NCBI GenBank assembly: GCA_020725265.1
Contig: DYFK01000010.1
Coordinates: 62,001-126,000 of the forward strand
Origin: Hydrogenophilus sp.
GTDB lineage: Bacteria > Pseudomonadota > Gammaproteobacteria > Burkholderiales > Thiobacillaceae
Direction of reading: 5' to 3'
DNA: 64,000 nucleotides
Program-made: the position numbers and the translations under genes
The notes under the pieces: generated by a model
Database searches by the model: none
Seen by the model: only the letters and a program-made list of their open reading frames with translations
Told to the model about the DNA's origin: nothing
In this document: positions 4,653-41,374 of the stretch, piece after piece
Position numbering within the stretch: position 1 is the stretch's first letter
Layout of the letters: each line of letters opens with the position of its first letter

Positions 4653-5180
4653 ATGGCCGAACCCGCCGGTATGCCGATACCCCCCTCCATGCTCGCCCTG
4701 ATCGGGCGCGCCGCGCTGTTCGCCGGCTTGTGGTGGGCGCTCGCCGAGGGCGCGGCGCGCGACTGGGGTGTCGGTCTGGTCAGCGTGGTCCTGGCGGTGG
4801 CCACCAGCGCTTGGCTATGGCCACCGACGACGACACGGCTGTCCCCATCCGGATTGCTCCGCTTCCTCGTCTTCTTCCTCTGGCAGTCGGTGCGCGGCGG
4901 CGTCCTGGTGGCGCGCCTGGCCTTGCACCCGCGCCTCCGGCTGCGCCCGGAGGTCCGCCGCTTCCGCCTGCGGCTGCCACCGGGGGCGGGCCGCGTACTG
5001 CTGGCCGATACCCTGAGCCTGTTGCCGGGAACGGTCAGCGCCGGGTTTGGCGAGGATGATCTCCGGCTGCACGTGCTCGACCGCGATCTGGTGGTCGAGG
5101 CTGACTTGCGTGCCGCCGAGGCGGTGGTGGCCGGTCTGCTCGGCCTCGAACTGGAACGGCCGGAGGTGACCGGTGCCTGA
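4653..5180 (+). CDS. Mrp/Mnh antiporter subunit E-like (MbhA-like)
   Basis: GLWWALAEGAARDWGVGLVSV, SLLPGTVSAGF, LHVLDRDL motifs of MnhE. Confidence 0.85.
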   Translation: MAEPAGMPIPPSMLALIGRAALFAGLWWALAEGAARDWGVGLVSVVLAVATSAWLWPPTTTRLSPSGLLRFLVFFLWQSVRGGVLVARLALHPRLRLRPEVRRFRLRLPPGAGRVLLADTLSLLPGTVSAGFGEDDLRLHVLDRDLVVEADLRAAEAVVAGLLGLELERPEVTGA

Positions 5181-5457
5181 GTGGCTGGCCGCCTTCCTGC
5201 TCGCCAACCTGCTGGTGGCGCTGCGCTGGGTGATGCGTGGGCCGACCCAGGCCGACCGCATGCTCGCCGCGCTGCTGTTCGGCACCACCGGTGTCGCCAT
5301 CCTGTTGCTGCTGCACGAAGCCATGGCCAGCCCGGCGCTGCTCGACGCCGCGCTGGTGTTCGCGCTGCTCGCCGCCATCGCCGGCGCCGCCTTCGCGCAG
5401 CGTGCCTGGCGCGACGAAACACCGGCGGCATCGGAGGCCGATCATGACCGGGATTGA
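5173..5457 (+). CDS. Mrp/Mnh antiporter subunit F-like (MbhB-like)
   Basis: 94 aa, three TM, RGPTQADRMLAALLFGTTGVAILLLL; overlaps preceding gene. Confidence 0.8.
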   Translation: MPEWLAAFLLANLLVALRWVMRGPTQADRMLAALLFGTTGVAILLLLHEAMASPALLDAALVFALLAAIAGAAFAQRAWRDETPAASEADHDRD

Positions 5458-5767
5458 CGCGATCGGCGCCGCGCTGCTCTGGATCGGCGCCGGATTCTTC
5501 CTGGCCGGCACCATCGGTCTGCTGCGTTTTCCCGATGTCTATGCCCGCCTGCACGCGCTCGCCAAGGTCGACAACCTCGGCCTCGGCTTCATCGCGCTCG
5601 GTCTGGCGTTGCGCGCCGACAGCCTGGCGAGCGCGCTCAAGTTGCTGCTGGTCTGGCTGCTCGCGCTGTTCGCCAGCGCCACGATCAGCTACCTGATCGC
5701 GCGGCGCGCGCTCGCGCGCGGCATCGAGCCGGTGGCGGAGATGGGCGCCGATGGAGACCAGCGATGA
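5444..5767 (+). CDS. Mrp/Mnh antiporter subunit G-like (MbhC-like)
   Basis: MTGIDAIGAALLWIGAGFFLAGTIGLLRFPDVYARLHALAKVDNLGLG; MnhG signature; ATG at 5444 in frame with listed ORF end. Confidence 0.85.
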   Translation: MTGIDAIGAALLWIGAGFFLAGTIGLLRFPDVYARLHALAKVDNLGLGFIALGLALRADSLASALKLLLVWLLALFASATISYLIARRALARGIEPVAEMGADGDQR

Positions 5768-6042
5768 CCGAGCTGGCCGATTTCGGCGTGTTCGACGTGC
5801 TGCTCGCGCTGGCCCTGCTCGGTAGCGCCTGGCGCGCGCTGGCGGCGCCCGATCTGTTCAAGGCGACGGTGTTGTTCATCGTCTTCGGCCTGCTCATGGC
5901 GTTGGCCTGGGCGCGTCTGGCGGCGCCCGACATCGTCCTGGCCGAGGCCGCCATCGGCGCCGGCCTGACCGGGGCGTTGCTGCTCGACGCGGTCGGCCAT
6001 CTGCGCGCGCGGCGGCGCGCGCGCGAGGAGGACGGGCGATGA
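5764..6042 (+). CDS. DUF4040 / MbhD-like antiporter subunit
   Basis: 92 aa; LFKATVLFIVFGLLMALAWARLAAPDIVLAEAAIGAGLTGALLLDAV resembles MrpA C-terminal/MbhD domain. Confidence 0.8.
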   Translation: MTELADFGVFDVLLALALLGSAWRALAAPDLFKATVLFIVFGLLMALAWARLAAPDIVLAEAAIGAGLTGALLLDAVGHLRARRRAREEDGR

Positions 6043-6743
6043 GCGGGAGCCCGGGTGCTGGCCGTTCGCGGATCGTGACCTGGGCGGTGGTCGGCTTGTG
6101 CCTGGGCCTGGCCGGCGCGCTTGCCTGGGCCATGCTCGACCTGCCGGCGCCGTCGACGCGCCTGCCCGGACAGGTCGCCGCGCAGCTCGAACGCAGCGGC
6201 GTCGAGCATCCGGTCACCGCCGTGCTGCTCAATTTCCGTGGTTACGACACCCTGTTGGAAATCGCCGTGCTGTTGCTGGCGCTGCTCGGCATGCTCGCCG
6301 CCGGTGTCGCTCCGCGCGCCAGCGCGCCGCTCGGCGCCTCGTCCATGCTCGCCGCGCTGGCGCGCGCGCTGGCGCCGCTGATGGTGCTGGTGGCCGGCTA
6401 CCTGCTGTGGGCCGGCGCGTTCCGACCAGGCGGCGCGTTCCAGGCCGGCGCGGTGCTGGCGGCGGCCGGCGTGCTGCTGCGCCTGGCCGGCTTCCTGCCG
6501 GCCTGGACCCGGCCGGGCGCCGCGCTGCGCATGGCGCTGGCCGCTGGTTTCGCGCTGTTTCTGGCGATCGCCGCGCTCGGCCTGACCGAAGGCGCGCTGC
6601 TGCGTTATCCGGAACCATCCGCCGGCGCGCTGATCCTGGCCATCGAATCGGGCCTGACCTTCTCGCTCGGTCTGATTCTGGCCGGGCTGTTCCTGGCCGG
6701 GCCGGAACTGCCGCGCCGCGAGGACGGCGGGGGCACGCCATGA
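6039..6743 (+). CDS. MbhE/MnhB-like fused antiporter subunit
   Basis: HPVTAVLLNFRGYDTLLEIAVLLLALLGMLAAG (MbhE motif) followed by LWAGAFRPGGAFQAGAVLAAAGVLLRLAG (MnhB-like). Confidence 0.78.
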   Translation: MSGSPGAGRSRIVTWAVVGLCLGLAGALAWAMLDLPAPSTRLPGQVAAQLERSGVEHPVTAVLLNFRGYDTLLEIAVLLLALLGMLAAGVAPRASAPLGASSMLAALARALAPLMVLVAGYLLWAGAFRPGGAFQAGAVLAAAGVLLRLAGFLPAWTRPGAALRMALAAGFALFLAIAALGLTEGALLRYPEPSAGALILAIESGLTFSLGLILAGLFLAGPELPRREDGGGTP

Positions 6744-7069
6744 GCCTGGGCCTGTTCTACGCGCTGCTCGGTGGCGGCCTGTTCGCGCTCGGCCTGGCCG
6801 GATTGATCCTGCGCCCGCATCTGCTCGCCAAGATCATCGGTTTCAACGTCATGGGCAGCGGTGCCTTCCTGGTTCTGGTCGGTCTGGGCAGCCGCGACGG
6901 CGTCGCCGACCCGGTGCCGCAGGCCATGGTCCTGACCGGCATCGTCGTCGCCGTCGCCGCCACCGCGCTGGCGCTGGCGCTGGCGCGGCGCCTGCTGGAG
7001 CTGTCCGGCGACATGGTGTTGCCGGGGGAACGCCTCCGCCCGGGGGAGGACGACGATGCCGACGCCTGA
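6740..7069 (+). CDS. Mrp/Mnh antiporter subunit C-like (NuoK-like)
   Basis: ATG at 6740; LLAKIIGFNVMGSGAFLVLVGLGSRDGVADPVPQAMVLTGIVVAVAATALALAL is an MnhC signature. Confidence 0.88.
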   Translation: MSLGLFYALLGGGLFALGLAGLILRPHLLAKIIGFNVMGSGAFLVLVGLGSRDGVADPVPQAMVLTGIVVAVAATALALALARRLLELSGDMVLPGERLRPGEDDDADA

Positions 7070-8510
7070 GGCGTTCGATCCGCTGCCCTGGCTGATCCTG
7101 CTGCCGCTGGCCTGGGCCACCGCAGCCTTCGCGCTCGGCCCCGGACGCGGTGCCCGCCTGGCCATCGCCGGCCTGGCCGCGCAACTGGCGCTGGCGCTGA
7201 TCCTGGCCGGGCAGGTTCTGGCCGGCGGTGCCCGCGCGCACGCGGTCGGCGGTTGGGGCGCGCCGCTCGGCATCGACCTGATGGTGGATGGCCTGGCCGC
7301 GCTGATGCTGTTGATGACGGCGGTGGTGGCATTGCCCATCGCCATCTACGCGCGTGGCTATTTCCGCGCCAGACCGAAGGGGGGGGAATGGTTCTGGCCG
7401 CTCGCCGGTTTTCTGGTGGCCGCGCTTGACGCGCTGTTCCTGGCCGCCGACCTGTTCAACCTGTACGTCACCCTGGAACTGCTCGGCCTGGCGGCGGTGG
7501 GCCTGACCGCCGCCGCCGGCGATCGCGCGGCGGTGGCCGCCGGCCTGCGCTACCTGCTGGCCACGCTGCTGGGTTCCGGCGCCTACCTGCTCGGCGTCGC
7601 GCTGCTCTATGGCGCGCATGGTTCGGTCTCGCTGACGGTGCTGGCGCCGGCGGTGGCCGCCGATCCGGCGCCGGCCGCCGCGCTGGCGCTGGCGCTGGTG
7701 GTGGCCGGCATGGCGCTGAAGACAGCGCTGTTCCCGTTCCATTTCTGGCTGCCACCGGCGCATGGTGGCGCCGCCAGCCCGGTCTCCGCGCTGCTGTCCG
7801 CGCTGGTGATCAAGGCTTCGTTCTATCTGCTGTTGCGGCTCTGGCTGGATCTGTTCGCGCCGCTGGTGTCGGTGTCGGCGGCGCAACTGCTCGGTCTGCT
7901 CGGGGCGGGCGCCATCCTCTGGGGCTCGGCGCTGGCCCTGGTCCAGACTCGTTTGAAGATGCTGGTGGCCTATTCCACGGTGGCCCAGATCGGCTACCTG
8001 TTCCTGCTGTTCCCGCTCGCCACCGGAGTTTCCGCCACCGCCGCCGAGGCCGCGGTCCAGGGCGGCGTCATGCAGGCGTTGTCGCACGCCTTGGCCAAGG
8101 CGGCCATGTTCGCGGCGGCCGGCGGCATGATCGTCGCCGTCGGCCGCGACGACATCGCCCGGCTCGGTGGCATCGCCGGCCGGGTGCCGCTGACCCTGTT
8201 CACCTTTGGCCTGGCCGGCGTCACCCTGATGGGCCTGCCGCCCTCGGGAGGCTTCTCGGCCAAGTGGCTGCTGCTCATGGCCGCGCTGGAAAGCGGCCAG
8301 TGGTGGTGGGTGGTGGTCATGGTGGTCGGCGGCCTGCTCGCCGCCGCCTATGTCTTCAAGGTGCTGCGTCAGGCGTTCCCGCCGGCCGAGCCCGGCGATC
8401 TCGTCCACCGCGTCCCGCGCGCCATGGAATGGAGCGGCTTCGCGCTCGCCGTCGGCGGCATCCTGCTCGGATTGTTCGGCGCCGGACCATTGGCGTTGCT
8501 GGCGGTTTGA
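7056..8510 (+). CDS. Proton-conducting antiporter subunit (MnhD/MbhH-like)
   Basis: NLYVTLELLGLAAVGL (TM5 Glu), [49 protein letters not shown]. Confidence 0.88.
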   Translation: MPTPEAFDPLPWLILLPLAWATAAFALGPGRGARLAIAGLAAQLALALILAGQVLAGGARAHAVGGWGAPLGIDLMVDGLAALMLLMTAVVALPIAIYARGYFRARPKGGEWFWPLAGFLVAALDALFLAADLFNLYVTLELLGLAAVGLTAAAGDRAAVAAGLRYLLATLLGSGAYLLGVALLYGAHGSVSLTVLAPAVAADPAPAAALALALVVAGMALKTALFPFHFWLPPAHGGAASPVSALLSALVIKASFYLLLRLWLDLFAPLVSVSAAQLLGLLGAGAILWGSALALVQTRLKMLVAYSTVAQIGYLFLLFPLATGVSATAAEAAVQGGVMQALSHALAKAAMFAAAGGMIVAVGRDDIARLGGIAGRVPLTLFTFGLAGVTLMGLPPSGGFSAKWLLLMAALESGQWWWVVVMVVGGLLAAAYVFKVLRQAFPPAEPGDLVHRVPRAMEWSGFALAVGGILLGLFGAGPLALLAV

Positions 8511-8720
8511 GGGGCCGGATTCCGTTTCGTCGCGGCGCGCGATGATCGGATGGCGGTTCGGTTGTGATGCGTAGGGGTATCCCTGGGCTGGTCGTCGGGC
8601 GTTTTTTGTTCCGGTACGCCAGAACCAATGGAATGTATTAGATGAATCCCTTATATTTCACGGCGTTCGCAAGGCAACCGCGAATCCAAGAGGTTGCGTC
8701 TGAATCCGCCTGGAGTCTCC

Positions 8721-9815
8721 ATGTATCACCAACGCATCAGGAATCTGCTGTTCCTCGCATGGCTCGTGCTTGCTTCGTTCTCGGGAGCCGCGCAGGCGCA
8801 GGTCAGTGTCACCGTGACCTGGAATGGAGGGTCATTTCCGAGTGAGCCGGGTTGGGAAATCGTCAATACCGCGACCAATGAGGTCGTGATGTGCCGGCAG
8901 GCCGGCGCGGGACCTCATCCGGTCTTGACCGTTCTCGATCTCGCGCCCGGCCAGTATGAGGTGACCGGCTGGGACAGTTTCGGCGACGGCTGGAATTCTG
9001 GTTCCCTGAGCATCAGCGTGGGCGGCTCCACGGTATTCACAACTTCCGGGCCTCCCAATGCGGGGTACGCTCCCGCGAACAACAACTGCGCGACCGCGCC
9101 GAATGATCCGGACAGCTCGGCGGGGGCGGCCTCCCTCGGCACCTTCACGGTGACGCCGCCGCTCGCGCTTTCCCTGACCAAGACCGTCGGTACCGCGGAG
9201 GGGGTCTGCGCCGCCACCGACAGCATCACGGTGGCGGCCGGCACGACGGTCTACTACTGCTACACGGCGACCAATACCGGCAGCACCACATTGACCACGC
9301 ATGATCTGGTGGACGATCAGCTCGGCACCATCTTTTCCGGCCTGAATTACAGCCTGACGCCCGGGTCGGTCATCGATACCGTGTCGGCGGGATTGAGCAT
9401 CCCGGCGGTGATCAACGTCACCACCATGAATACCGCGACCTGGTCCGCCGATGGCGCGTCCGACAGTGCCAGCGCCACGGTGACCGTGAGCGCTCCGACC
9501 ACGTACACCGTCAGCGGTGGCGTCAACGAGCCCGCTGGTGGCGCCGTCGAATGCCTGCCGGCGGTGGTGGCTTCCGGCGGTTCCAGTACGTGTACCGCCA
9601 CCGCCAATCCCGGTTATGTCTTCACCGGTTGGTCCGGTGATTGTTCCGGGACCAACCCGGTCTGCATCGTGAACGGGATCGCTGGGGACGTGTCCGTGGT
9701 CGCCAATTTCGCCATCGAGCCGAGACCGGTGCCGGTGTTGGGGATGGGGGGACTGATGTTGCTGTCTGGGTTGATCGGCCTGGCGCTGTATCCGTTGCGT
9801 CGCCGATTCGGTTGA
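8721..9815 (+). CDS. Exported protein with InlB B-repeat-like domain and IPTL-CTERM-like C-terminal anchor
   Basis: Signal peptide MYHQRIRNLLFLAWLVLASFSGAAQAQ; repeat-domain motif GYVFTGWSGDCSG; C-terminus EPRPVPVLGMGGLMLLSGLIGLALYPLRRRFG (motif, TM, basic cluster). Internal Met chosen as start. Confidence 0.7.
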   Translation: MYHQRIRNLLFLAWLVLASFSGAAQAQVSVTVTWNGGSFPSEPGWEIVNTATNEVVMCRQAGAGPHPVLTVLDLAPGQYEVTGWDSFGDGWNSGSLSISVGGSTVFTTSGPPNAGYAPANNNCATAPNDPDSSAGAASLGTFTVTPPLALSLTKTVGTAEGVCAATDSITVAAGTTVYYCYTATNTGSTTLTTHDLVDDQLGTIFSGLNYSLTPGSVIDTVSAGLSIPAVINVTTMNTATWSADGASDSASATVTVSAPTTYTVSGGVNEPAGGAVECLPAVVASGGSSTCTATANPGYVFTGWSGDCSGTNPVCIVNGIAGDVSVVANFAIEPRPVPVLGMGGLMLLSGLIGLALYPLRRRFG

Positions 9816-9894
9816 CGAGGCTGAAGGGCGGGCGTGACCCCGCTCTTCACGTCGATGCGACAAAGAAGGCTGGACGGCTCCGTTCAGTCTTCTC

Positions 9895-9916
9895 GCCGGA
9901 CCAGGCGTGGTCCGGC
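9895..9916 (+). terminator. Hairpin downstream of the 8721-9815 gene
   Basis: Perfect 9-bp stem GCCGGACCA / TGGTCCGGC with GGCG loop, followed by weak T-rich TCGTTGTT. Confidence 0.5.
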
Positions 9917-10064
9917 TCGTTGTTCCGGGCGGGCGGTGGGGCCGGATGGCCGATTCGTGGGCGCGGCGCGTGGAACCGTATCGGGGTTCATCCCCACCAA
10001 GACTGACGGCGCCCGGTTTCCGGGTTAGATTGTGCCGCCACCGCTGTCAGATCCGTTGCCGCGC

Positions 10065-11600
10065 ATGCCTCCCGAACCCGTTTCCCTGATGATCCCCGAT
10101 GCCTGGCTGCCGCCGCTGGTGGTGCTGAGTTCGTTCCTGCCCGGCATTGCCATCTTTTTCCTGAACGAGGCGCGCGTGCGCTTGCGCGTCACGCTCAATC
10201 TGGCTGGCGCGTTGGCCAAGCTGGCGTTGATCGGGGTCATGCTGTGGGGGGTGATGCACGAACACGAGTACGTGTTCCGGCATGCCGTGCTGCCGGGCGT
10301 GGAGCTGGTGTTGAAGGCGGACGCGCTGGCCCTGCTGTTCGTCAGCCTGTCGGCGGTGCTCTGGCTGTTTACCACGCTGTACGCCATCGGCTATCTGGAG
10401 AACGCGCCCAACCGCAGCCGCTTCTTCGGTTTCTTCAGTGTCTGCGTGACCGCCACGGTGGGCGTGGCGATGGCCGGCAACCTGTTCACCTTCTTCCTGT
10501 TCTACGAGTTGCTGACGCTGTCCACCTATCCGTTGGTGGTGCACCGGGGCACGCCCCAGGCGATGCGCGCCGGCCATCTCTATCTGGGCTACACGCTGGC
10601 CGGCGGCGCGCTGCTGCTGGTCGGCACGATCTGGCTGTACGGACTGGCCGGCCAGGTCGATTTCGTGCCGGGCGGCAGCCTGGCGGCGCTGCCGGCGGAG
10701 ACCGCCGGTCAGTTGCGCCTGGTGTTCGCGCTGCTGATCGCCGGCGTCGGCGTCAAGGCGGCGCTGGTGCCGCTGCATGGCTGGCTGCCCCAGGCCATGG
10801 TCGCGCCGGCGCCGGTGTCGGCGTTGCTGCACGCGGTGGCGGTGGTCAAGGCCGGCGCCTTCGGCATCGTGCGCGTGGTCTACGAGGTCTATGGCATCGA
10901 GTTCGCGCAGTCGCTGGATCTGCTCACCCCGCTCGCGGTGGTGGCGGCGATCACCATCATCTGGGGCAGTCTGCGCGCGTTGAGCCAGGACGATCTGAAG
11001 AAACGGCTGGCCTATTCGACGGTCAGTCAGGTGTCCTACATCGCGCTGGGCGTGGCGCTGTTCGGTCCGGTCGGCACCATCGGCGGCGTCGTCCATCTGG
11101 TGCACCAGGGCATCATGAAGATCACGCTGTTCTTCTGCGCCGGCAATTTCGCCGAGACCCTGGGCCTGCACAAGGTCAGCGAGCTGGATGGCGTCGGCCG
11201 GCGCATGCCCTGGAGCGCGGCGGCGTTCACCATCGGCGCCTTCGGCATGATCGGCGCGCCGCCGACCGCCGGCTTCATCAGCAAGTGGTATCTGGGCCTG
11301 GGCGCGCTGGAGGCGCACATGCCCTGGGTGCTGGCGGTACTGGCCGTCTCGACCCTGCTCAACGCCGCCTATTTCCTGCCCATCCTGCATCGACTCTGGT
11401 TCCGGCCGGCGCCGGCGTCGTGGCCGCATGAACACATTCCCGCGCGCGCTGGCTGGGAAACCTCGCGCCTGCTGCTGTTGCCGCCGGTGGCCACGGCCGC
11501 CGCCACGCTGGCCGTGGGCGTGTTCGCGGCGAGCAGTCTGAGTCCGCTCGACTGGGCCAAGCTGATCGCGGCGCGCGAGTACCTGCGCTGGGTGCCGTGA
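10065..11600 (+). CDS. Proton-conducting antiporter-like membrane subunit (NuoL/M, MrpD-like)
   Basis: LFTFFLFYELLTLSTYPLVVHRG (TM5 Glu), GVKAALVPLHGWLPQAMVAPAPVSALLHAVAVVKAG; ORF may start at GTG 10032 or ATG 10065. Confidence 0.88.
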   Translation: MPPEPVSLMIPDAWLPPLVVLSSFLPGIAIFFLNEARVRLRVTLNLAGALAKLALIGVMLWGVMHEHEYVFRHAVLPGVELVLKADALALLFVSLSAVLWLFTTLYAIGYLENAPNRSRFFGFFSVCVTATVGVAMAGNLFTFFLFYELLTLSTYPLVVHRGTPQAMRAGHLYLGYTLAGGALLLVGTIWLYGLAGQVDFVPGGSLAALPAETAGQLRLVFALLIAGVGVKAALVPLHGWLPQAMVAPAPVSALLHAVAVVKAGAFGIVRVVYEVYGIEFAQSLDLLTPLAVVAAITIIWGSLRALSQDDLKKRLAYSTVSQVSYIALGVALFGPVGTIGGVVHLVHQGIMKITLFFCAGNFAETLGLHKVSELDGVGRRMPWSAAAFTIGAFGMIGAPPTAGFISKWYLGLGALEAHMPWVLAVLAVSTLLNAAYFLPILHRLWFRPAPASWPHEHIPARAGWETSRLLLLPPVATAAATLAVGVFAASSLSPLDWAKLIAAREYLRWVP

Positions 11601-13240
11601 TGAGCGCCGAATTCCTGTTGATCCTGACGCCGCTGGCGCCGTTGCTGGTCGCCGGCTTGCATGCGTGGCCGCGTGGCCGCGTCCTGGCCCGGGGTCTGAT
11701 GCCGTGGACGCCGTTGCCGGCGTTGGCCGCGCTGGCCGTGTTGCCGGTCGGCGCCGGTGTCGATACCGGCTGGTTGTTGTTGGGTACGCCGCTCGGCCTG
11801 GACGCCACCGGCGCCATCTTCCTGCTGTTTTCCGCGTTGATCTGGCTGGCGACCGGCTGGCGCGCGCGCCAGGACCGGAATGGCGAGCCGGCGACGTCCC
11901 GCTTCCAGGTCTCCTTCCTGCTTGCCCAGGCCGGCAATCTGGGGGTCTGCCTGGCTCAGGACGGGCTTGGCTTCTATGCCTTCTTCGCGTTGATGACCTT
12001 CGCCGCCTATGGTCTCGTGGTCGACGCCGGCGATGCCGAGGCGCGCCGCGCCGGCCGTGTCTATCTGGCCTTCGCGGTGGCTGGCGAAGTGCTCGCGCTG
12101 ATCGGCCTGTGGCTGCTTGCCGACGCCCACGACGGCCGGTTGCCCGATTTCGCGTCGATGACGCCGGCCGGTTCGCTGGCGGCCGCATTCCTGGTGCTCG
12201 GCTTCGGCGTCAAGACCGGCCTGCCGCTGCTCCATTTCGCGCTGCCGCCGGCCTACGCGGTGGCGCCGGCGGCGGGCGCGGCGGTGCTCGCCGGCGCCCT
12301 GATCAAGGCCGGTCTGCTCGGCTGGCTGCGCTTCCTGCCTCTCGGCGAGGCCGCGCTGCCGGGGCTTGGCGCCGGCCTGTGCGTCGCCGGCGCGCTGGCG
12401 ATCGTGGTCGCGCCGGTGATCGGCCTGTGCCAGCGCCGGGTCGGCGCGCTGCTGGCCTATTCGAGCATCGCGCAGATGGGCCATTTCGCGCTGGCGATCG
12501 GCGTCGCGCTGACCGCGCCGACGCTGTGGCCGGCGCTGTGGCCGGCGTTGATGCTGTATGCCGCGCATCACGCCCTGATCAAGGCGGCGCTGTTCCTTGG
12601 TCTGGCTCCAGCCAGTGTCGGCCGCTCCGGGCGCATCGCGCTGGCGCTGGCCGCGCTGGCGCTGGCCGGCGCGCCGCTCACCGGCGGGTTCCTGGCCAAG
12701 GCGGCGCTGAAAGCCGGCTTGGCGGATGCCGCGCTGGCCGGCGCACTGAGCGCGCTGTTCGCGCTGGGTGTGCTCGGCACCGCGCTGCTGATGGTCCGGC
12801 TGTTCCGGCTGTCGCCGATGGCGGGCGACCGGCGTGAGGCCGGTACCGGAGCCTTCCTGGCCCTGCTGGCGGTCGCGCTGGCGTTGCCTTGGTGGCTGGC
12901 GCCGGCCTCCGCGCTGGCGACCCTGTCGGCGCCGGCCGCCTGGGTCGTGGCGCTGGCGCCGCTGGCGCTGGCCGCTGCCCTGGCCGCGCTGGCGCGTCGC
13001 CAGGGCTGGCGCGCGCCCGACCTGCCGGCGGGCGACCTGCTGGTATGGCTGGAAGCTGGCGCGCGCGCTGTCGTCGAGCGCCTGACCCGGCCGGACAGCG
13101 AGGCCGGCGCGCCGCCGCCCTCGCCGGCGCGCCGGCCGCCGCGCCTGGAGGCGCATCTGCGCGCCTGGCCGGTGGCTGGCCTGCTCTGGTTGGGCCTGCT
13201 GGCGATGGTGCTGGTGGGTGCCGCCGGCCTGGTGGCGTGA
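11597..13240 (+). CDS. Proton-conducting antiporter-like membrane subunit, atypical TM5 (paralog 1)
   Basis: GFGVKTGLPLLHFALPPAYAVAPAAGAAVLAGALIKAGLLGWLRF; FYAFFALMTFAAYGLV replaces the usual Glu-containing motif. Confidence 0.85.
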   Translation: MMSAEFLLILTPLAPLLVAGLHAWPRGRVLARGLMPWTPLPALAALAVLPVGAGVDTGWLLLGTPLGLDATGAIFLLFSALIWLATGWRARQDRNGEPATSRFQVSFLLAQAGNLGVCLAQDGLGFYAFFALMTFAAYGLVVDAGDAEARRAGRVYLAFAVAGEVLALIGLWLLADAHDGRLPDFASMTPAGSLAAAFLVLGFGVKTGLPLLHFALPPAYAVAPAAGAAVLAGALIKAGLLGWLRFLPLGEAALPGLGAGLCVAGALAIVVAPVIGLCQRRVGALLAYSSIAQMGHFALAIGVALTAPTLWPALWPALMLYAAHHALIKAALFLGLAPASVGRSGRIALALAALALAGAPLTGGFLAKAALKAGLADAALAGALSALFALGVLGTALLMVRLFRLSPMAGDRREAGTGAFLALLAVALALPWWLAPASALATLSAPAAWVVALAPLALAAALAALARRQGWRAPDLPAGDLLVWLEAGARAVVERLTRPDSEAGAPPPSPARRPPRLEAHLRAWPVAGLLWLGLLAMVLVGAAGLVA

Positions 13241-13242
13241 TC

Positions 13243-14835
13243 ATGACCGACGGCGCGGCGTGGTTGCCGGCCGTCATGCTGGTGCCCGCCGCGCTGGCCC
13301 TGGCCGCGCGCGGTCGTATCGGCGCCGCGCTGATGCCGTGGGCGCCGGTGCCGGCGCTGGCTCTGGCCCTGAGCCTGCCGGTCGGCACGACCCTGGAATT
13401 GCCCTGGCTGCTGCTCGGCAGCGTGTACGCGCTGGACGCCAGCGGCCGGTCGTTTCTGATCTTCACCGCCCTGGTCTGGCTGCTGGCCGGCTGGTTCGCG
13501 CGTGCATGGCTGCGCGGCGATGCCGCGGCCGGGCGCTTCCGGACCTTCTTCCTGGCGACCCAGGCGGGCAATCTGGGCCTCTGCCTGGCCCAGGACGCCG
13601 CCAGTTTTTATCTGTTGTTCGCGTTGATGACCTTCGCCGCCTACGGACTCATCGTCCACGCCGGCGACGACGCGGCCCGGCGTGCCGGCCGCGTCTATCT
13701 GGTCATGGCGCTGTTCGGCGAGGTCGCGATCCTGATCGGCCTGCTGCTCGCCGCCAGTGGCAATGCCGCCGCCGGCATCTGGCCGCTGCTGATCGGCTTC
13801 GGCGTCAAGGTCGGCCTGCCCCTGCTGCATGTCTGGTTGCCGCTCGCGCATCCGGTGGCGCCGGTGCCGGCCAGCGCGGTGCTGTCCGGGGTCATGCTCA
13901 AGGCTGGCCTGCTCGGCTGGCTGCGCTTTCTGCCGCTGGGCGAAACCGCTTCGTCGGAAGCGGGCATGGTTCTGGTCGTGGCCGGACTGGCGGCGATGCT
14001 GCTCGCCGTCGGCGTCGGCCTGACGCAGCGTCAGCCCAAGGTGGTGCTGGCCTATTCCAGCGTCAGCCAGATGGGCTTCATGACCCTGGGCGTCGGCGCC
14101 GGGCTGCTGGCGCCGGCGTCGTGGCCGATGTTGCTGGCGGCGGTATGCCTGTACGCCTCGCATCATGCGCTGGCCAAGAGCGCGCTGTTCCTCGGCGTCG
14201 GCCTGATCCGGCGGCACGGCGCGCGACCGGCCTATCTGGCCGGGCTGGCGCTGCCGGCGCTGGCGCTGGCCGGCGCGCCGCTGACCAGCGGTTTCCTGGC
14301 CAAGGCGGAGTTGAAGACGGCGCTGGCCGGCCTGGATGCGCCACTCGTGCCGTCGCTTGTCGGGATGCTGCCCGGCCTGCTGGCACTGGCCGCGCTCGGT
14401 AGCACGCTGTTGATGGCGCGCCTGTTCTGGTTGCTGAGCCGGCCGCGCCCGGCCGTCGCCGCCGCCGATGCCAGCCTCTGGCTGCCCTGGGCGGCGGCGC
14501 TGCTGGCGGTGCTGATCGCCGGCCTGGCGCCGCTCGTGTCCGCTGTTGGACCAGGTTCCGCGTGGGCGACCGCGCTGTGGCCGTTCCCGGCCGCCGCCGC
14601 CCTGGCTTGGTTGGCCGTCCGGCGCGGCTGGCGGGCGCCGGAGCTGCCGGCCGGCGACGTGCTGGCGCTGGTTCCGGACCGCCCGCCAACCCGGGTCCGG
14701 TGGATGTGGTCGCCGCCCCGGTTGGCTCCGCCATCACTGTCGGTCTGGCCGCGCGGCGAGCGGGCGTTGCGCGCCGGCGCGACCACCGGATTGTTGTGGC
14801 TGTGCCTGCTGGCGGCGGGGTTTTTGCTATTCTGA
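13243..14835 (+). CDS. Proton-conducting antiporter-like membrane subunit, atypical TM5 (paralog 2)
   Basis: ATG at 13243; GFGVKVGLPLLHVWLPLAHPVAPVPASAVLSGVMLKAGLLGWLRF; FYLLFALMTFAAYGLI; highly similar to the 11597-13240 product. Confidence 0.85.
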   Translation: MTDGAAWLPAVMLVPAALALAARGRIGAALMPWAPVPALALALSLPVGTTLELPWLLLGSVYALDASGRSFLIFTALVWLLAGWFARAWLRGDAAAGRFRTFFLATQAGNLGLCLAQDAASFYLLFALMTFAAYGLIVHAGDDAARRAGRVYLVMALFGEVAILIGLLLAASGNAAAGIWPLLIGFGVKVGLPLLHVWLPLAHPVAPVPASAVLSGVMLKAGLLGWLRFLPLGETASSEAGMVLVVAGLAAMLLAVGVGLTQRQPKVVLAYSSVSQMGFMTLGVGAGLLAPASWPMLLAAVCLYASHHALAKSALFLGVGLIRRHGARPAYLAGLALPALALAGAPLTSGFLAKAELKTALAGLDAPLVPSLVGMLPGLLALAALGSTLLMARLFWLLSRPRPAVAAADASLWLPWAAALLAVLIAGLAPLVSAVGPGSAWATALWPFPAAAALAWLAVRRGWRAPELPAGDVLALVPDRPPTRVRWMWSPPRLAPPSLSVWPRGERALRAGATTGLLWLCLLAAGFLLF

Positions 14836-14880: not shown

Positions 14881-15504
14881 ATGTACGAGGAAACCCCCAG
14901 CGATTCCACGAATCCGCCCGCGCCGACCCGCGCGGAAACCTTGAAAACCTGGGTGCGCGAGGGCCACGTGCCGGCCTGGCTGGCGCTGGCGCTGGTGGCC
15001 TTGCTGATCCTGGCGTTCGCCTGGAAACAGTTCGCGGTGGGCGCGGCGCAACGCGCGCTGGACAGCGAACGCATGACCATGACCCAGCAACTGGCCGATG
15101 AGAAGACGCACGTGCGCGCGGCGGCCGGCGAATTCCTGGCGCGCAACAGCGACGCCGCCCACGTGCTCATGGGCACCACGCTGGCCTGGGCGGTGCGCGG
15201 CGAACTGATCCGTGACAACCTCGACCAGATCGACCAGTTCTTCGGCGAGCTGATCCGCAACGACCGCGTGCGCGTCGTCCTGCTCGCCGGCGCCGATGGC
15301 GTGGTGCGCCTGGCCACCGACCGCAAGTTGCAGGGAGGCGCCTTCTCCGCCCATTTCCCGGAAGCGCTGCTCGCGGAACCGGCGGTCGTGATCCGGCCGG
15401 GCGCGGATGGCGAGAAATGGCTGGTGCTGCCGATCCAGGGGCTCAATTCCCGGCTCGGCACGGTGCTGGTCGCCTATCGACCTGAGCCGAGCATGCCGGA
15501 GTGA
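14881..15504 (+). CDS. Single-TM membrane-anchored protein with periplasmic sensor-like domain, unknown function
   Basis: 207 aa; TM WLALALVALLILAFAWKQFAV; NDRVRVVLLAGADGVVRLATDRKLQGG and VLPIQGLNSRLGTVLVAYRP resemble a PDC/Cache fold; RBS AGGAGAG. Confidence 0.65.
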   Translation: MYEETPSDSTNPPAPTRAETLKTWVREGHVPAWLALALVALLILAFAWKQFAVGAAQRALDSERMTMTQQLADEKTHVRAAAGEFLARNSDAAHVLMGTTLAWAVRGELIRDNLDQIDQFFGELIRNDRVRVVLLAGADGVVRLATDRKLQGGAFSAHFPEALLAEPAVVIRPGADGEKWLVLPIQGLNSRLGTVLVAYRPEPSMPE

Positions 15505-18885: not shown

Positions 18886-19734
18886 ATGCAAGCCGAAGTA
18901 ACGGCGGACGCCGCCGGCGCCCGCGGGCGCTTGCGCGCGTTCATCGAAAACGCGCGCGTCCAGCATGTCATCCTGGCGCTGATCCTGATCAACGCGGTGA
19001 CCCTGGGCCTGGAAACCTCGCCGGGCGTGATGGCGGTGGTGGGCGGCCCGCTGCATCTGCTCGACAAGGCGATCCTGTCGGTATTCGTGGCCGAGATCGC
19101 GATCCGGCTGTACGTGCATCGGGCCGCCTTCTTCCGGGATCCCTGGAGCCTGTTCGACTTCGTCGTGGTCGGTATCGCCCTGGTGCCCGCCACCGGCCAG
19201 TTCTCGGTGCTGCGCGCGCTGCGCGTGCTGCGGGTGCTGCGGGTGCTGACCCTGGTGCCGTCGATGCGCCGGGTGGTCGGCGCGTTGCTGGCGGCGATTC
19301 CGGGCCTGGGGTCGATCGCGTTGGTCCTGGCGATCATCTACTACGTGTTCGCGGTGATCGCCACCAACCTGTTCGCCGTCAGTCATCCGGAATGGTTCGG
19401 CGACATCGGCCGCTCGCTGTACACGCTGTTCCAGATCATGACCCTGGAGAGCTGGTCGATGGGCATCTCGCGGCCGGTGATGGAGACCTTCCCCTATGCC
19501 TGGGCGTTCTTCATCCCGTTCATCCTGATCGCCACCTTCACCATGCTCAACCTGTTCATCGCCATCATCGTCAACGCCATGCAGACCTTTGGCGAAAGCG
19601 AACACAGCGACACGGTGCGCGTGGTGGAGCAGGCGCGCGAGCACATCGAGGCCGACGTGCACGCCGAGGTGCGCGCGCTGCGCGAGGAAATCCGGGCGTT
19701 GCGCCAGATGCTGGAGGCGCGCGCCGGTCAGTAA
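18886..19734 (+). CDS. Bacterial voltage-gated sodium channel-like ion channel (BacNav family)
   Basis: S4 LRALRVLRVLRVLTLVPSMRRVV with Arg every third residue; pore motif TLESWSM identical to the NavAb/NaChBac selectivity filter region; C-terminal coiled coil. Confidence 0.9.
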   Translation: MQAEVTADAAGARGRLRAFIENARVQHVILALILINAVTLGLETSPGVMAVVGGPLHLLDKAILSVFVAEIAIRLYVHRAAFFRDPWSLFDFVVVGIALVPATGQFSVLRALRVLRVLRVLTLVPSMRRVVGALLAAIPGLGSIALVLAIIYYVFAVIATNLFAVSHPEWFGDIGRSLYTLFQIMTLESWSMGISRPVMETFPYAWAFFIPFILIATFTMLNLFIAIIVNAMQTFGESEHSDTVRVVEQAREHIEADVHAEVRALREEIRALRQMLEARAGQ

Positions 19735-21356
19735 TCCTCGCCGGCGCCGTTCGACAGCTCGCCGCTGTCGGCCGGGCTGTCGTCGCGCGCGGCCAGGCGG
19801 GCGAGCAGGCCGGTGGCCTTGAGCGCCTGTTCGCAGGCGCGCCGGGTCAGGCTGGCGGCGCGCAGCAGGGTTTCCATGTCGTCGACTTCCATGCGGCCTT
19901 CGGCGCCGGCTTCGAGCAGAGCCGCCTTGAGCGCCTGATAGCGCTCGCCCAGGATGTCCGCGCTGGCGTCCTCGGCGAGCGCCGGGTCGGGACCGGCTTC
20001 CGGCTCGGCTCGGCGCAGGATGTCGCCGGCCAGTTCGGCGAAATCGTGCCAGGGCGCCGGCGGCATGCCGGCCGGTGGTGTGCGCGAGAGCAGGGTGGCG
20101 ACTTCGGCGACGGTCGCGTAGTAGCGCGCCAAGCGCAGCATGTCCGGCAGCCGGCGCGCGCTTTCGCCGGCCATCGCGGCGCGGTGCAGGCGGGCTACGA
20201 ACTCGCCGACCGCCCGGTGCAGGCGGACGACCACGTTTTCCTGACGTGACAGATCCTCGCCCCGGCCGACCAGCGCGGTGGCGGCCATGCGCGTGGCGAT
20301 GCCGCCCATGCGCCGGATTTCCCGTTCCATCGCGTTGAGCGCCAACGCCGGCACGGCGGCGGCGTTGGCGTCGAGGAAGCGGGGCCGGGCGGCGTCTTCC
20401 TCGGCGGAGCGGAAGCGGCGATTGAGGAAGGTGGCCAGGCGTTCGGTCAACGGCCACATCAGCGCCACGCCGAGCAGGTTGAACACGGTGTGGAACAGAG
20501 CCAGCGTCGCCGCCGGCGCGGTATCCAGGTCCAGCGCCTGGCCGAGCAGGACGATGCCGGTCACCAGCCAGGGCAGCAGCAGCAGCGCGACCACGCCGGT
20601 CAGCAGGTTGAAGACGACGTGGGCCATGGCCGCGCGCTTGGCGTTGGCGGTGGCGCCGAGCGCGGCGAGCAGGGCCTTGACCGTGGTGCCAAGGTTGGCG
20701 CCGATGACCACGGCGGCGGCGTCGGTGAGCGGCAGCACGCCGGTCTGCGCGGCGGTCAGCGCCACCGCCAGAGCGGCGCTGGACGATTGCATGAGCACGG
20801 TCAGCACCATGCCGGCGGCGACGTGGGCGAGCACCGACAGTGTCCGGTTGTCGATCTGGGGCAGGCCCATGTCGCCGCCGACCCCGGAAAACGTCGCGCG
20901 CAGCACGTCGATGCCCAGGAACAGCGTGCCGAAACCGGCCAGCGCCATGCCGATCGGGCCGCGTCGGCTGTGCTGGCCGGTCAGTTGCAGCAGCATGCCG
21001 ACGCCGATCAGCGGCAGCGCCAGCGCGTCGATCTTGAAATCGAGGCCGGCCACCGCCACCAGCCAGCCGGTCATGGTGGTGCCGACGTTGGCGCCGAACA
21101 GCACCCACAGCGCCTGGCCGAGCGTGAGCAGGCCGGCGTTGACGAAACCGATGGTGGCGACGATGACCGCGCTGGACGACTGCACCACCGAGGTGACCAG
21201 CGCGCCGGAGGCGAGCCCGCGCAACCGGGTGCCGGTGGAGCGCGCCAGGATGCGTTCCAGCGCCGGCCCGGCGGCCAATTTGAGGCCCTCGGTCATCAGC
21301 CACATGCCGAGCAGGAACAGGCCGATGCCGCCGAGCAGGCCGGAGAGCTGGTTCAT
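19728..21356 (-). CDS. Na/Pi cotransporter family protein (NptA-like) with PhoU-like C-terminus
   Basis: MNQLSGLLGGIGLFLLGMWLMTEGLKLAAG; twin QSSSA repeats (VVQSSSAVIVATIGFVNAG, LMQSSSAALAVAL); helical C-terminal domain. Confidence 0.92.
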   Translation of the reverse strand: MNQLSGLLGGIGLFLLGMWLMTEGLKLAAGPALERILARSTGTRLRGLASGALVTSVVQSSSAVIVATIGFVNAGLLTLGQALWVLFGANVGTTMTGWLVAVAGLDFKIDALALPLIGVGMLLQLTGQHSRRGPIGMALAGFGTLFLGIDVLRATFSGVGGDMGLPQIDNRTLSVLAHVAAGMVLTVLMQSSSAALAVALTAAQTGVLPLTDAAAVVIGANLGTTVKALLAALGATANAKRAAMAHVVFNLLTGVVALLLLPWLVTGIVLLGQALDLDTAPAATLALFHTVFNLLGVALMWPLTERLATFLNRRFRSAEEDAARPRFLDANAAAVPALALNAMEREIRRMGGIATRMAATALVGRGEDLSRQENVVVRLHRAVGEFVARLHRAAMAGESARRLPDMLRLARYYATVAEVATLLSRTPPAGMPPAPWHDFAELAGDILRRAEPEAGPDPALAEDASADILGERYQALKAALLEAGAEGRMEVDDMETLLRAASLTRRACEQALKATGLLARLAARDDSPADSGELSNGAGEDY

Positions 21357-21537
21357 GGGCGCGATCCCGTTGGAACGGCCGGAAAGGGGCTGGACATGGC
21401 GGTCGGCGGCTATGGGAATGATGGTATCTTAGCCCGACGACAACGGCCGGGAACCCGACGCCCGCGCCGACACTCGTCACGACGGCGACTTTTCTCAGCC
21501 TTCCCCGATGCGCCGTTTCCAGAACACAGGGTCCGAC

Positions 21538-24267
<2,730 letters not shown>

Positions 24268-26001
24268 GTGAGCGCCATCGACCAACTCGTCCTGGCCGGC
24301 GCGGTGCTGCTGTTGCTGGCCATTCTGGCCAGCGCGCTGTCCTACCGCATTGGCATGCCGTTGCTGCTGGTGTTCCTGGGAGTCGGCATGCTGGCCGGCG
24401 AGGACGGTCCCGGCGGTATCGTCTTCAATGACGCCGGCATTGCCTACGCGGTCGGCAGCGTCGCGCTCGCCATCATCCTGCTCGACGGCGGTCTCAACAC
24501 CCGCGCCGACAGTTTCCGCGCCGGCCTGCGGCCGGCGGCGGTGCTGGCCACGCTGGGCGTGCTGCTGACCTGCGTGATTACCGGTCTGTTCGCCGCCTGG
24601 GCGCTCGATTTCGGCCTACTCCAGGGCATGCTGGTCGGCGCCGTGGTCGGCTCCACCGACGCCGCCGCCGTGTTCGCGCTGCTGCGCGCCAAGGGGCTGA
24701 ACCTCAAGCAACGGGTTTCCGCGACGCTGGAGATCGAATCCGGCAGCAACGATCCGATGGCCGTGCTGCTGACCGTGGCGCTGCTCGAACTGATCCTGGC
24801 CGGCCAGCGCGTACCCGGCTGGGACACGCTGGGGTTGCTCGCCTGGCAACTGGGCCTGGGCCTGGCCGCCGGTGTCGGCGGCGGCCGCCTGCTGGCCTGG
24901 CTGGTCAACCGGTTGCGGTTGGAACAGGGCATGTATCCGATGCTGATCCTGGCCGGTGGTCTCGCGCTCTATGGCCTGACCACCGCGCTCGGCGGCAGCG
25001 GTTTCCTGGCCATCTACCTGGCCGGCGTGGTCATCGGCAACCGCCATGTGCGCCAGTCCCGGCAGATCCTGCAAGTGCACAACGGCATGGCCTGGCTGGC
25101 GCAACTGGGCATGTTCCTGATGCTCGGCCTGCTGGCGTCGCCGAGCGATCTGATCGCCTATGCTCCGGCCGCGCTCGCCATCGCCCTGGTGCTGATGTTC
25201 GTGGCGCGGCCGCTGGCGGTCTGGCTGTGCCTGCTGCCGTTCCGGTTCCCGGCGCGCGAGCAGGTCTACGTGTCCTGGGTCGGCCTGCGTGGCGCGGTGC
25301 CCATCATCCTCAGCCTGTTTCCGCTGCTGGCCGGCTTGCCGGAGGCGCCGGCGATCCTGCACGTCGCCTTTTTCGTGGTGCTGGTTTCACTGACCGTGCA
25401 GGGCTGGACTGTGGCGCCGCTGGCGCGCCGGTTGCGACTGGAGGTGCCGCCGGCGCCCGGCCCCGACGAGCGTTTCGACCTGGAGGCCCCGCGCGCGGGC
25501 AATTTCGCGCTGCTCGGTTACCGGCTGACCGCCGATGGCCACGCCGTCGGCCGCCGCGCCGAGACCTTGCGCCTGCCCGATCGGACCGATCTGGTCGCGG
25601 TACTGCGCGACGGCGACGATGCGCCAGGTCGGGTGCTGGCGCCGGCCGCCGCCGGCGAACTGGCGGCCGGCGATCTGCTTTACGTGCTGGCGCCGGAAGA
25701 AGCCGCCGCCGAGGTCGGCGCTATCCTGGCCGCGCCGCCGGCGCCCACGCATCTGCGCGAACGGGTGTTCTACGGCGATTTCGTGTTGCATGGCGACGCC
25801 CGTCTGGGCGACGTCGCCGGGCTGTATGGCCTGAACGTGCCGGCTGGCGCGGAAGAACGGACGTTGGCTGATTTCATGGCCGGCGCGCTGCGCGGCAAGC
25901 CGGTGGTCGGCGACCGGGTGCCGATCGGCGGCATGGAACTGGTGGTGCGCGAGGTTGCCGGCAACCGCATCGCCCGGGTCGGCCTGCGCCTGCCCGAATG
26001 A
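24268..26001 (+). CDS. CPA1-type K+/H+ antiporter with TrkA-C-like and CorC-like C-terminal domains
   Basis: GTG start directly after preceding stop; GVGMLAGEDGPGGI, VGSTDAAAVFALLR, ESGSNDPMAVLLT; CvrA/NhaP2-like. Confidence 0.88.
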   Translation: MSAIDQLVLAGAVLLLLAILASALSYRIGMPLLLVFLGVGMLAGEDGPGGIVFNDAGIAYAVGSVALAIILLDGGLNTRADSFRAGLRPAAVLATLGVLLTCVITGLFAAWALDFGLLQGMLVGAVVGSTDAAAVFALLRAKGLNLKQRVSATLEIESGSNDPMAVLLTVALLELILAGQRVPGWDTLGLLAWQLGLGLAAGVGGGRLLAWLVNRLRLEQGMYPMLILAGGLALYGLTTALGGSGFLAIYLAGVVIGNRHVRQSRQILQVHNGMAWLAQLGMFLMLGLLASPSDLIAYAPAALAIALVLMFVARPLAVWLCLLPFRFPAREQVYVSWVGLRGAVPIILSLFPLLAGLPEAPAILHVAFFVVLVSLTVQGWTVAPLARRLRLEVPPAPGPDERFDLEAPRAGNFALLGYRLTADGHAVGRRAETLRLPDRTDLVAVLRDGDDAPGRVLAPAAAGELAAGDLLYVLAPEEAAAEVGAILAAPPAPTHLRERVFYGDFVLHGDARLGDVAGLYGLNVPAGAEERTLADFMAGALRGKPVVGDRVPIGGMELVVREVAGNRIARVGLRLPE

Positions 26002-39498: not shown

Positions 39499-39827
39499 TG
39501 GAAGCCCTGCTCTCGATCGTCATCGGTCTGCTCACCGCCTGCGGCGTCTATCTGGCGCTGCGCGGCCGGACCTTTCCCGTGGTGCTGGGCATGACCTTCC
39601 TGTCCTACGCGGTCAACCTGTTCCTGTTCGCGATGGGTCGGCTGACCATCGGCCAGCCGCCGGTGATCGCCGCCGGCGCCGCCGGCTATACCGATCCGCT
39701 GCCGCAGGCGCTGGTGCTGACCGCCATCGTCATCGGCTTCGCGATGACCGCCTTCGTCATCATTCTGGCCCTGAAGGCGCGCGCCGAGCTGGGCAATGAC
39801 CACGTCGACGGAAGGGGGCGGTCATGA
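39498..39827 (+). CDS. mrpC: Mrp antiporter subunit C
   Basis: FPVVLGMTFLSYAVNLFLFAMGRL, DPLPQALVLTAIVIGFAMTAF. Confidence 0.93.
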   Translation: MEALLSIVIGLLTACGVYLALRGRTFPVVLGMTFLSYAVNLFLFAMGRLTIGQPPVIAAGAAGYTDPLPQALVLTAIVIGFAMTAFVIILALKARAELGNDHVDGRGRS

Positions 39828-41374
39828 ACACCTGGCCGCAAACCGCCAGCCTCGGCCTGGCCGATCACCTGACCGTCGCGCCGGTGCTGCTGCCGCTGGT
39901 CGCCGGCATCGTCCTGCTGCTGGCGCGCGGCGCCGGCATCGGCTTCGCCCGCGCTTTCGGCCTGGCCGCCGCGCTCGGCCAGCTCGGCCTGGCCCTGCTG
40001 CTGAGCGGCGCGGTGGCCGACGGCGACATCCTGGTCTACGCGCTCGGCAACTGGTCGGCGCCATTCGGCATCGTCCTGGTCGCCGACCGGCTGGCGGTCT
40101 GGATGCTGTTGATCACCGCCACGCTGGCGCTGCCGGCGCTGCTGTACGCGAGCCGGGGCATCGACGGCCATGGCCAGCATTTTCACGTGCTGTTCCAGTT
40201 GCAGCTGTTCGGCCTGAACGGCGCCTTCCTGACTGGCGACCTGTTCAACCTGTTCGTGTTCTTCGAGGTGCTGCTGCTTGCTTCCTACGGCCTGGTGCTG
40301 CACGGCGGCGGCCGCGAACGCGCGCGCGCCGGCCTGCATTACGTGGTGGTCAACCTGGCCGGCTCGTCGCTGTTCCTGATCGCGGTGGGCACGCTGTACG
40401 GCCTGTACGGCACCTTGAACATGGCCGATCTGGCGCTCAAGGCGGCATCGACACCGGCCGAGAACCTGGCCCTGGCGCGCGCCGCCGGTCTGCTGCTGTT
40501 CGGCGTGTTCGCGCTGAAGGCGGCGCTGCTGCCGTTGTACCTGTGGCTGCCGGCGGCCTACGCCAATACCAGCGCGCCGGTGGCGGCGCTGTTCGCGATC
40601 ATGACCAAGGTGGGCGCCTACAGCATCCTGCGCGCGCAGACGCTGATGTTCGGCGACCAGGCCGGGCCGATGGCCAATCTGCTCGATGCCTGGTTGTTGC
40701 CGCTGGCGCTGGCGACCCTGATCCTGGGCATGCTCGGCGCGCTGGCCGCGACTTCGCTGCGCGCGCAGACCGCCTACCTGGTGGTCGCGTCGGTCGGCTC
40801 GCTGCTGATCGCGTTCGGCCTGGGCAGCGGCGCCGGGATCGCCGCCGGCCTGTATTACCTGGCGCACGGCACCTTCGCGGCGGCCGCCATGTTCCTGCTC
40901 GCCGATCTGATCGGCCGGCGGCGGGGCGAGATCGGTGACCGTTTCGAGCCGGCCGCCGACATCGACCGGGCCTACCTGCTTGGCGGGGTCTTCTTCGTCG
41001 CCGCGCTGCTGTTGGCCGGCCTGCCGCCGTTGTCGGGCTTTCTCGGCAAGTTCCTGATCCTGCGCGCCGCGCTCGACCATCCGGCCCTGCCTTGGGTGAT
41101 GGCGTCGGTGCTGCTGGCCGCGCTGTTCGGCGTGATCGCGCTGGCGCGCACCGGCAGCCTGCTGTTCTTCCGGACCTGCTCGCAGCGTGATGGCAACGCG
41201 TCGGCGCCAACCGGGGCGCTCTGGACCGAGCTGGCGCCGGTGCTCGGCCTGATCGCCTTGTGCGTCGGCCTGACCGTGCTGGCCGGGCCGGCGCATGAGA
41301 CCACCGGCGCCATCGCCGAGCAGTTGCGCGCGCCGTACCACTACATCCATGCCGTGCTCGGAGGCCAGCCATGA
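39824..41374 (+). CDS. mrpD: Mrp antiporter subunit D
   Basis: LFNLFVFFEVLLLASYGLVLHGG; KAALLPLYLWLPAAYANTSAPVAALFAIMTKVGAYSILR. Confidence 0.93.
   Translation: MNTWPQTASLGLADHLTVAPVLLPLVAGIVLLLARGAGIGFARAFGLAAALGQLGLALLLSGAVADGDILVYALGNWSAPFGIVLVADRLAVWMLLITATLALPALLYASRGIDGHGQHFHVLFQLQLFGLNGAFLTGDLFNLFVFFEVLLLASYGLVLHGGGRERARAGLHYVVVNLAGSSLFLIAVGTLYGLYGTLNMADLALKAASTPAENLALARAAGLLLFGVFALKAALLPLYLWLPAAYANTSAPVAALFAIMTKVGAYSILRAQTLMFGDQAGPMANLLDAWLLPLALATLILGMLGALAATSLRAQTAYLVVASVGSLLIAFGLGSGAGIAAGLYYLAHGTFAAAAMFLLADLIGRRRGEIGDRFEPAADIDRAYLLGGVFFVAALLLAGLPPLSGFLGKFLILRAALDHPALPWVMASVLLAALFGVIALARTGSLLFFRTCSQRDGNASAPTGALWTELAPVLGLIALCVGLTVLAGPAHETTGAIAEQLRAPYHYIHAVLGGQP

Follow-up and report, generated by a model that had tools for sequence, protein, structure and literature searches.

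Among the described Mrp antiporters, those of Group 3 have no mrpA, sometimes carry mrpD in several copies and show a gene order unlike ABCDEFG (PMC8415708, PMC5703873). The stand-alone Group 3 Mrp of Pyrococcus furiosus serves pH homeostasis with Na+ (PMC8415708) and an A-less Mnh with extra nuoL/M genes tracks saline or alkaline habitats in Nitrospirales (PMC7784846, PMC12342949). The stand-alone Group 3 Mrp is an established system, and the A-less Mnh with adjacent NuoL/M-like genes has been described from Nitrospirales. A 64-kb stretch of DNA from Hydrogenophilus sp. (C20:62001-126000 of a 3.3 Mb genome; this whole stretch is called the window here) carries on its plus strand a cluster in the order E, F, G, MbhD, MbhE/MnhB fusion, C and D1, then D2, D3 and D4. 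What does this cluster do? The best explanation, which we consider likely from the predicted proteins, is that it encodes a multi-subunit cation/proton antiporter of the Mrp type, stand-alone and of Group 3 (mrpA-less), serving ion and pH homeostasis. The sequence features of Group 3 are there: mrpA is missing, the order is not ABCDEFG, E, F, G, B and C are present and the antiport residues are conserved. Canonical Mrp (Groups 1 and 2) has a single mrpA holding the antiporter and the MbhD/MbhE domains, whereas here these domains lie on separate genes. As a kind the gene set is not new: both the Group 3 class (PMC8415708, PMC5703873) and, for Nitrospirales, the arrangement with extra NuoM/NuoL-like genes (PMC7784846, PMC12342949) were already published, and a published description was what the original prediction, made from the letters alone, had itself named as its undoing.

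Pfam and NCBIfam profile searches of the encoded proteins bore out the subunit identities first assigned from the translations (E, F, G, DUF4040, an MbhE/B fusion, C, D and three further proteins). The domain E-values, about 1e-8 to 1e-57 across the cluster (3e-5 for MbhE), exclude chance for these identities, with the MbhE match in the fusion protein lying below its cutoff (24.2 vs 27 bits). The Mbh-like sequence of subunits also stands, but an unrelated gene between D1 and D2 had been missed; likewise there are four Proton_antipo_M proteins, as originally counted, but only D1 and D2 are complete, D3 and D4 being without the glutamate of transmembrane helix 5 (TM5). Neighbouring genes of the cluster overlap by a few bases, the D1/D2 junction excepted.

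Table 1. The antiporter cluster and its inserted gene, in positions of the window
Feature	Position	Strand	Evidence
E, MrpE/MbhA-like	4653..5180	+	Pfam MNHE 2.1e-22
F, MrpF/MbhB-like	5173..5457	+	Pfam MrpF_PhaF 5.9e-9
G, MrpG/MbhC-like	5444..5767	+	Pfam PhaG_MnhG_YufB 2.3e-24; NCBIfam TIGR01300 above cutoff
MbhD (DUF4040), equivalent to MrpA C-terminal part	5764..6042	+	Pfam MbhD 6.8e-16
MbhE + MrpB fusion (MbsE-like)	6039..6743	+	Pfam MnhB 3.1e-11, MbhE 3.4e-5; motif NFRGYDTLLE
C, MrpC/NuoK-like	6740..7069	+	Pfam Oxidored_q2 1.4e-18
D1, MrpD orthologue	7056..8510	+	Pfam Proton_antipo_M 1.3e-54
Unrelated inserted gene, exported-type protein with InlB-like repeat, outside the complex	8694..9815	+	Pfam Flg_new_2 2e-13
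Terminator-like hairpin 3' of the inserted gene	9895-9916		
D2, complete antiporter-like subunit, helix VIII of the MrpA/NuoL type, probably in place of MrpA-N	10032..11600	+	Proton_antipo_M 1.6e-57
D3, degenerate antiporter-like subunit, TM5 Glu to Ala, NuoL-like overall fold	11597..13240	+	Proton_antipo_M 7e-22
D4, paralogue in tandem with D3, Ala for TM5 Glu	13237..14835	+	Proton_antipo_M 2.7e-31

Are these proteins equipped for antiport? In Bacillus pseudofirmus, Mrp antiport requires MrpA E687, R773 and E780, MrpD E137 and K219, MrpE T113 and MrpF D32, among others; MrpC G82 matters for full activity, and the mutations MrpD-E137A and MrpA-E140A each abolish antiport (PMC5703873). Alignments of the relatives of each subunit retain the equivalents of MrpA E687 in MbhD (E in 50/50), of R773 and E780 in MbhE (R in 69/69; E in 68/69, with one gap), of MrpE T113 (T or S in 65/65), of MrpF D32, the essential Asp of the DR motif (62/62), and of MrpC G82 (70/70). 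D1 has invariant Glu TM5, Lys TM7, Lys TM8 and Lys TM12 (73/73), and the Glu TM5/Lys TM7 pair of an active antiporter-like subunit is present both in D1 and in D2 (79/79 for the latter). Judged by alignment, the antiport-relevant residues tested are invariant or nearly so throughout the core.

The comparison of the cluster covered 80 named loci and 20 carrier genomes from the same class, two sets which overlap, and the same order recurs in both. The complete core E-F-G-MbhD-MbhE/B-C-D1-D2 stands in order in 59 of the 80 named loci, with contig ends cutting many of the others; as these loci were ranked by identity to D2, such proportions are no census. This core of eight genes, through D2, is strongly conserved in Beta- and Gammaproteobacteria. 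Carriers are found among Thiobacillus, Nitrosomonas, Nitrosospira, Rhodocyclaceae, Chromatiaceae and some Nitrospinaceae and Deltaproteobacteria metagenome-assembled genomes (MAGs), the nearest named relatives by D2 being Thiobacillus and Burkholderiales MAGs, which makes a Thiobacillus-like betaproteobacterium the most likely host of the window. The number of D3-like genes downstream varies: among those of the 59 core loci with at least 2.5 kb of downstream DNA it is zero in 26, one in 23 and two in six, and a wider search using all D3 relatives found none downstream of D2 in 32 loci. D3-like proteins with at least 39% identity over a long match occur in 20 of 368 other genomes of the class. 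One reduced cluster, on the single contig of genome G404 (locus L083), consists of an MbhD+MrpC-like fusion, D1, D2 and D3, without E, F, G and B. Four loci (L090, L120, L146 and L157) have an additional gene between E and F; the gene interposed there in L120 and other loci falls in a universal stress protein cluster.

Does a redox module belong to this membrane arm? The original prediction saw neither a redox module nor DabA in the cluster, which holds for the whole window: no DabA, NuoB/C/D/H/I or hydrogenase gene is present in the cluster or in the 64 kb. It had then left the choice between a free-standing antiporter complex and one served by an unlinked module, and had proposed a survey for linked NiFe/NuoBCD genes. 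That survey, a tblastn search of 100 loci (1.79 Mb) with NuoB, C, D, E, F, G, H and I of the own genome plus the Ehr large and small subunits as queries, found no NuoB/C/D/H/I- or hydrogenase-type gene around the cluster; it matched only NuoE/F-like genes, which lie at the outer end of one locus, L108. A Complex1_49kDa gene (NuoD/hydrogenase-large) was never near the cluster among the 20 carrier genomes, and both this family and Oxidored_q6 (NuoB/hydrogenase-small) are absent genome-wide from two carriers rated 100% complete, G202 with the full cluster and G404 with the reduced one. Neither the linked hydrogenase or NuoB-C-D-I-type module of an MBH/MBS-type respiratory complex nor the NuoH plus NuoB/C/D/I of respiratory complex I accompanies the cluster. 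Could it still serve a redox-driven pump as membrane arm, with the NuoB/C/D- or hydrogenase-type module encoded elsewhere? The Mbh-like order of the small subunits would suit such an arm, and a search by family found two NuoD-like loci in the own genome, Nuo on contig C25 and an Ehr/Hyf-like cluster on C12. But both of these complexes have antiporter subunits of their own, the cluster has no NuoH-like anchor gene, no redox core gene adjoins it in the 100 loci and G202, rated 100% complete, carries all of it without either redox family, which makes this reading extremely unlikely. An unlinked redox partner was rejected for the lack of NuoB/NuoD-type proteins in the two carriers rated complete, and their absence supports the free-standing antiporter. 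The survey largely lifts the suspicion of a hidden redox partner from a widely distributed gene set. The Hyf/Ehr-like energy-converting complex of the own genome (C12:278000-286000, locus L010) is itself probably no hydrogenase, because RVSGDSHS stands in its large subunit in place of the CxxC ligand motif of NiFe hydrogenases.

A different partner would be needed if D2-D4 were a separate DabB-like uptake unit for inorganic carbon, or another solute, beside an Mrp-like complex. Several hosts are autotrophs (Thiobacillus, Nitrosomonas) and the D1/D2 junction is broken in the source strain and in five other loci (L096, L103, L109, L126 and L155), both of which would agree with two units. Yet DabA (PF10070) is absent from the own genome and from 11 of the 20 carriers, and where present it is never on the stretch of the cluster; D1 and D2, moreover, are adjacent in most loci, those of heterotrophs such as Azonexus included. 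We hold a separate uptake unit to be improbable, and a link to the DabAB inorganic-carbon transporter was rejected on finding no DabA partner.

How can an Mrp-type antiporter do without MrpA? In a tree of 52 sequences, built by a quick method and with long reference branches, D1 groups with canonical MrpD (SH-aLRT, a likelihood-ratio branch support, of 95), and by this measure D1 is MrpD. In D2, Glu TM5, Lys TM7, His and Lys TM8 and Lys TM12 are invariant in the 79 aligned sequences. The helix-VIII His is specific to MrpA and NuoL (PMC4938563), and the Mrp structure shows this His together with the Lys of helix VIII in MrpA (PMC7419157), a combination that D2 shares; because of this His of the MrpA/NuoL type, D2 probably replaces the N-terminal half of MrpA. 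Several observations weigh against this assignment. D2 forms a clade of its own, apart from MrpA/NuoL; its scores against NuoM profiles exceed those against MrpA profiles; of the helix-VIII motif H-T-M-V it retains His and Val alone; and its AlphaFold model has no MrpA-like lateral helix. D3, in addition, has a modelled fold more NuoL-like than that of D2, which leaves room for the opposite view of the distal position. The D2 model is that of a standard antiporter subunit (predicted local distance difference test, pLDDT, 86.6; TMq 0.78-0.85 to MrpD/MrpA chains), and Foldseek on it did not separate MrpD from MrpA. Identity of D2 with MrpA by phylogeny was rejected, given its place in this quickly built tree; since D2 falls outside MrpA/NuoL there, it is the helix-VIII motif that speaks for the MrpA-N role.

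The remaining two subunits lack what D1 and D2 share. In the D3/D4 family all 49 of 49 aligned members replace the TM5 Glu by Ala, Thr or Ser, and another alignment, of 25 sequences that partly overlap with the first, gave the same loss. Of 50 members, all keep Lys TM7, 35 keep Lys TM8 and 40 keep His TM11, so that the Glu TM5/Lys TM7 pair is broken, with Glu gone and Lys kept. By these residues the cluster has two complete antiporter subunits, D1 and D2, the same number as an ordinary Mrp, while D3 and D4 are degenerate. In the tree, D3 and D4 form one long-branched clade (SH-aLRT 100), and those of the window share one sub-clade of thiobacilli and near relatives; as far as phylogeny tells, they are recent tandem paralogues in a duplicated, optional and fast-evolving family. 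This paralogy is missing from the original prediction. The AlphaFold model of D3 (pLDDT 88.6) has a C-terminal extension and a full antiporter fold nearest overall to NuoL-type chains (TMq up to 0.75); the best NCBIfam profile for D4 is HyfB. In five Chromatiaceae-type loci (L144, L145, L156, L159 and L161) the D3 product reaches 763-926 aa through a long C-terminal extension, and a PG_binding_1 domain ends the D3-like protein in both of the two tested by Pfam (L161:11488-13782 and L145:8554-10962).

Are D3 and D4 fully active extra pumps, which would raise the H+/cation stoichiometry of a four-pump antiporter? Their retained Lys TM7, Lys TM8 and His TM11 and the full fold predicted for D3 could be read in this way, but the TM5 Glu whose exchange in MrpA (E140A) or MrpD (E137A) abolishes activity (PMC5703873) is gone from every aligned member, and 32 loci do without a D3-type gene; four working pumps are very unlikely. 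A tentative proposal, for which we claim some plausibility but would not wager on, is that D3/D4 form a distinct 'broken-pair' class of antiporter-like subunits, a distal cap electrostatically disconnected from the pump chain and regulating, bracing or anchoring the antiporter. If this were true, the PG_binding_1 end in Chromatiaceae would make a tie between the cell wall and an ion pump of the membrane. Searches of the open-access literature found neither the systematic TM5 Glu loss in an optional subunit nor its peptidoglycan-binding fusion described. It is still debated whether the antiporter-like subunits of complex I and Mrp each pump independently, and this family offers a natural series, the same core with zero, one or two extra subunits missing one residue of the Glu/Lys pair, on which coupling models could be tested directly.

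How would the complex work? For its assembly, subunit positions, cation, direction and physiological role, we infer the following. E, F, G, MbhD, MbhE/B and C would make up the cation-translocating block. Under the proton motive force, protons would flow in via D2 as the MrpA-N equivalent, which would hand charge states to D1 through a Lys12/Glu5 contact; D1, as MrpD, would then drive cation export at the MbhD/E-F-C site, a proton-cation coupling of the kind modelled for Mrp (PMC7419157). D3/D4 would be an optional, recently duplicated distal add-on that may brace, regulate or anchor the complex: having lost the TM5 Glu they are probably outside the Glu5/Lys7 coupling chain and, with no Glu to face Lys12 of D2, they are predicted to be decoupled. 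The stand-alone Mrp of Pyrococcus reportedly moves Na+ in and H+ out when the pH drops (PMC8415708), so the direction may depend on conditions. As to the cation, a variant compatible with the Group 3 antiporter is that it carries K+, as in Pha, or Ca2+ in place of Na+. Genes for a P-type cation ATPase and for a Na+/Ca2+-type exchanger turn up repeatedly next to the cluster or within it, and one Mrp is documented to exchange Ca2+ for H+ (PMC5703873); the conserved Mrp cation-site residues might be held against the variant, but they do not tell Na+ from K+ and their conservation is not strong evidence either way. Another cation than Na+ is possible, if rather doubtful. Two points count against the antiporter operon as a whole: antiport activity of the gene set is a predicted function, and the inserted gene may break transcription of the cluster in the source strain.

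The product of this inserted gene has 373 aa, an InlB-like repeat and a hydrophobic C-terminal tail. In the five other loci with an interrupted D1/D2 junction the interrupters include a P-type ATPase (L096) and a Ca2+/cation exchanger (L126, named by eye), and the junction looks like a recurrent insertion point. A promoter scan, taken as uninformative, gave no sigma-70-like site. GGDEF-domain proteins flank the cluster on both sides on the opposite strand, and directly 3' of D4 (window 14881-15504) lies a gene for a small protein with one transmembrane helix and a DUF6384 match below threshold.

Recurrent neighbours in the 80 loci are a P-type cation ATPase (27), a universal stress protein (23) and DUF502 (14); CPA2/CPA1 antiporters also recur beside the cluster, as do MscS-like channels, both groups being recognised by eye in the sequences, and seven loci have a canonical MrpA gene on the same fetched stretch. 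The window itself has ion-transport genes and a canonical MrpA'-type locus within 30 kb. This locus (36703-41880), with a fused MrpA' above the equivalog cutoff, D and E, was missing from the original prediction; the source genome has both Mrp types, about 22 kb apart, and between them lies an ion-transport island (19728-26001) of a Na+/Pi cotransporter, a P-type cation ATPase and a CPA1 exchanger. The neighbourhood is one of ion homeostasis, not respiration.

Which known system is closest? The stand-alone mrpEFGBB'CD of P. furiosus (PMC8415708) shares with this cluster the absence of mrpA and of a redox module, the order E-F-G-B-B'-C-D and the MbhD/E/F equivalents. It has one D subunit, whereas in the present gene set D2 is a constant addition and D3/D4 a frequent one, and it fuses MbhD to MbhE where the present cluster fuses MbhE to MrpB. 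Ca. Nitrospira alkalitolerans and other Nitrospirales have an A-less Group 3 Mrp with two NuoM/NuoL-like genes directly 3' of mrpD, read there as extra mrpA/mrpD-like genes; the likeness is one of published arrangement, and their neighbours differ, being nhaB, bicA and motB (PMC7784846, PMC12342949). The MBH/MBS arm of P. furiosus (MbhA-H, MbsA-H') has the same membrane-block subunits and order, with an MbhE/F-type fusion as in MbsE, and its MbsH', an MrpA-N-like second antiporter subunit, has a counterpart here, but the present cluster is without the NuoB/C/D/H/I- or hydrogenase-type subunits. The canonical Mrp of the same window (A'CDEFG type) agrees in subunit families, in two complete antiporter-like subunits and in cation-site residues, MrpA being split here into D2, MbhD and MbhE/B with D3/D4 in addition. 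HycC/HyfB of formate hydrogenlyase are, like D3/D4, antiporter-like subunits with a broken TM5 Glu/TM7 Lys pair, although in reverse: E. coli HycC keeps the Glu and loses the Lys (PMC9474812), while D3 and D4 have lost the Glu and kept the Lys.

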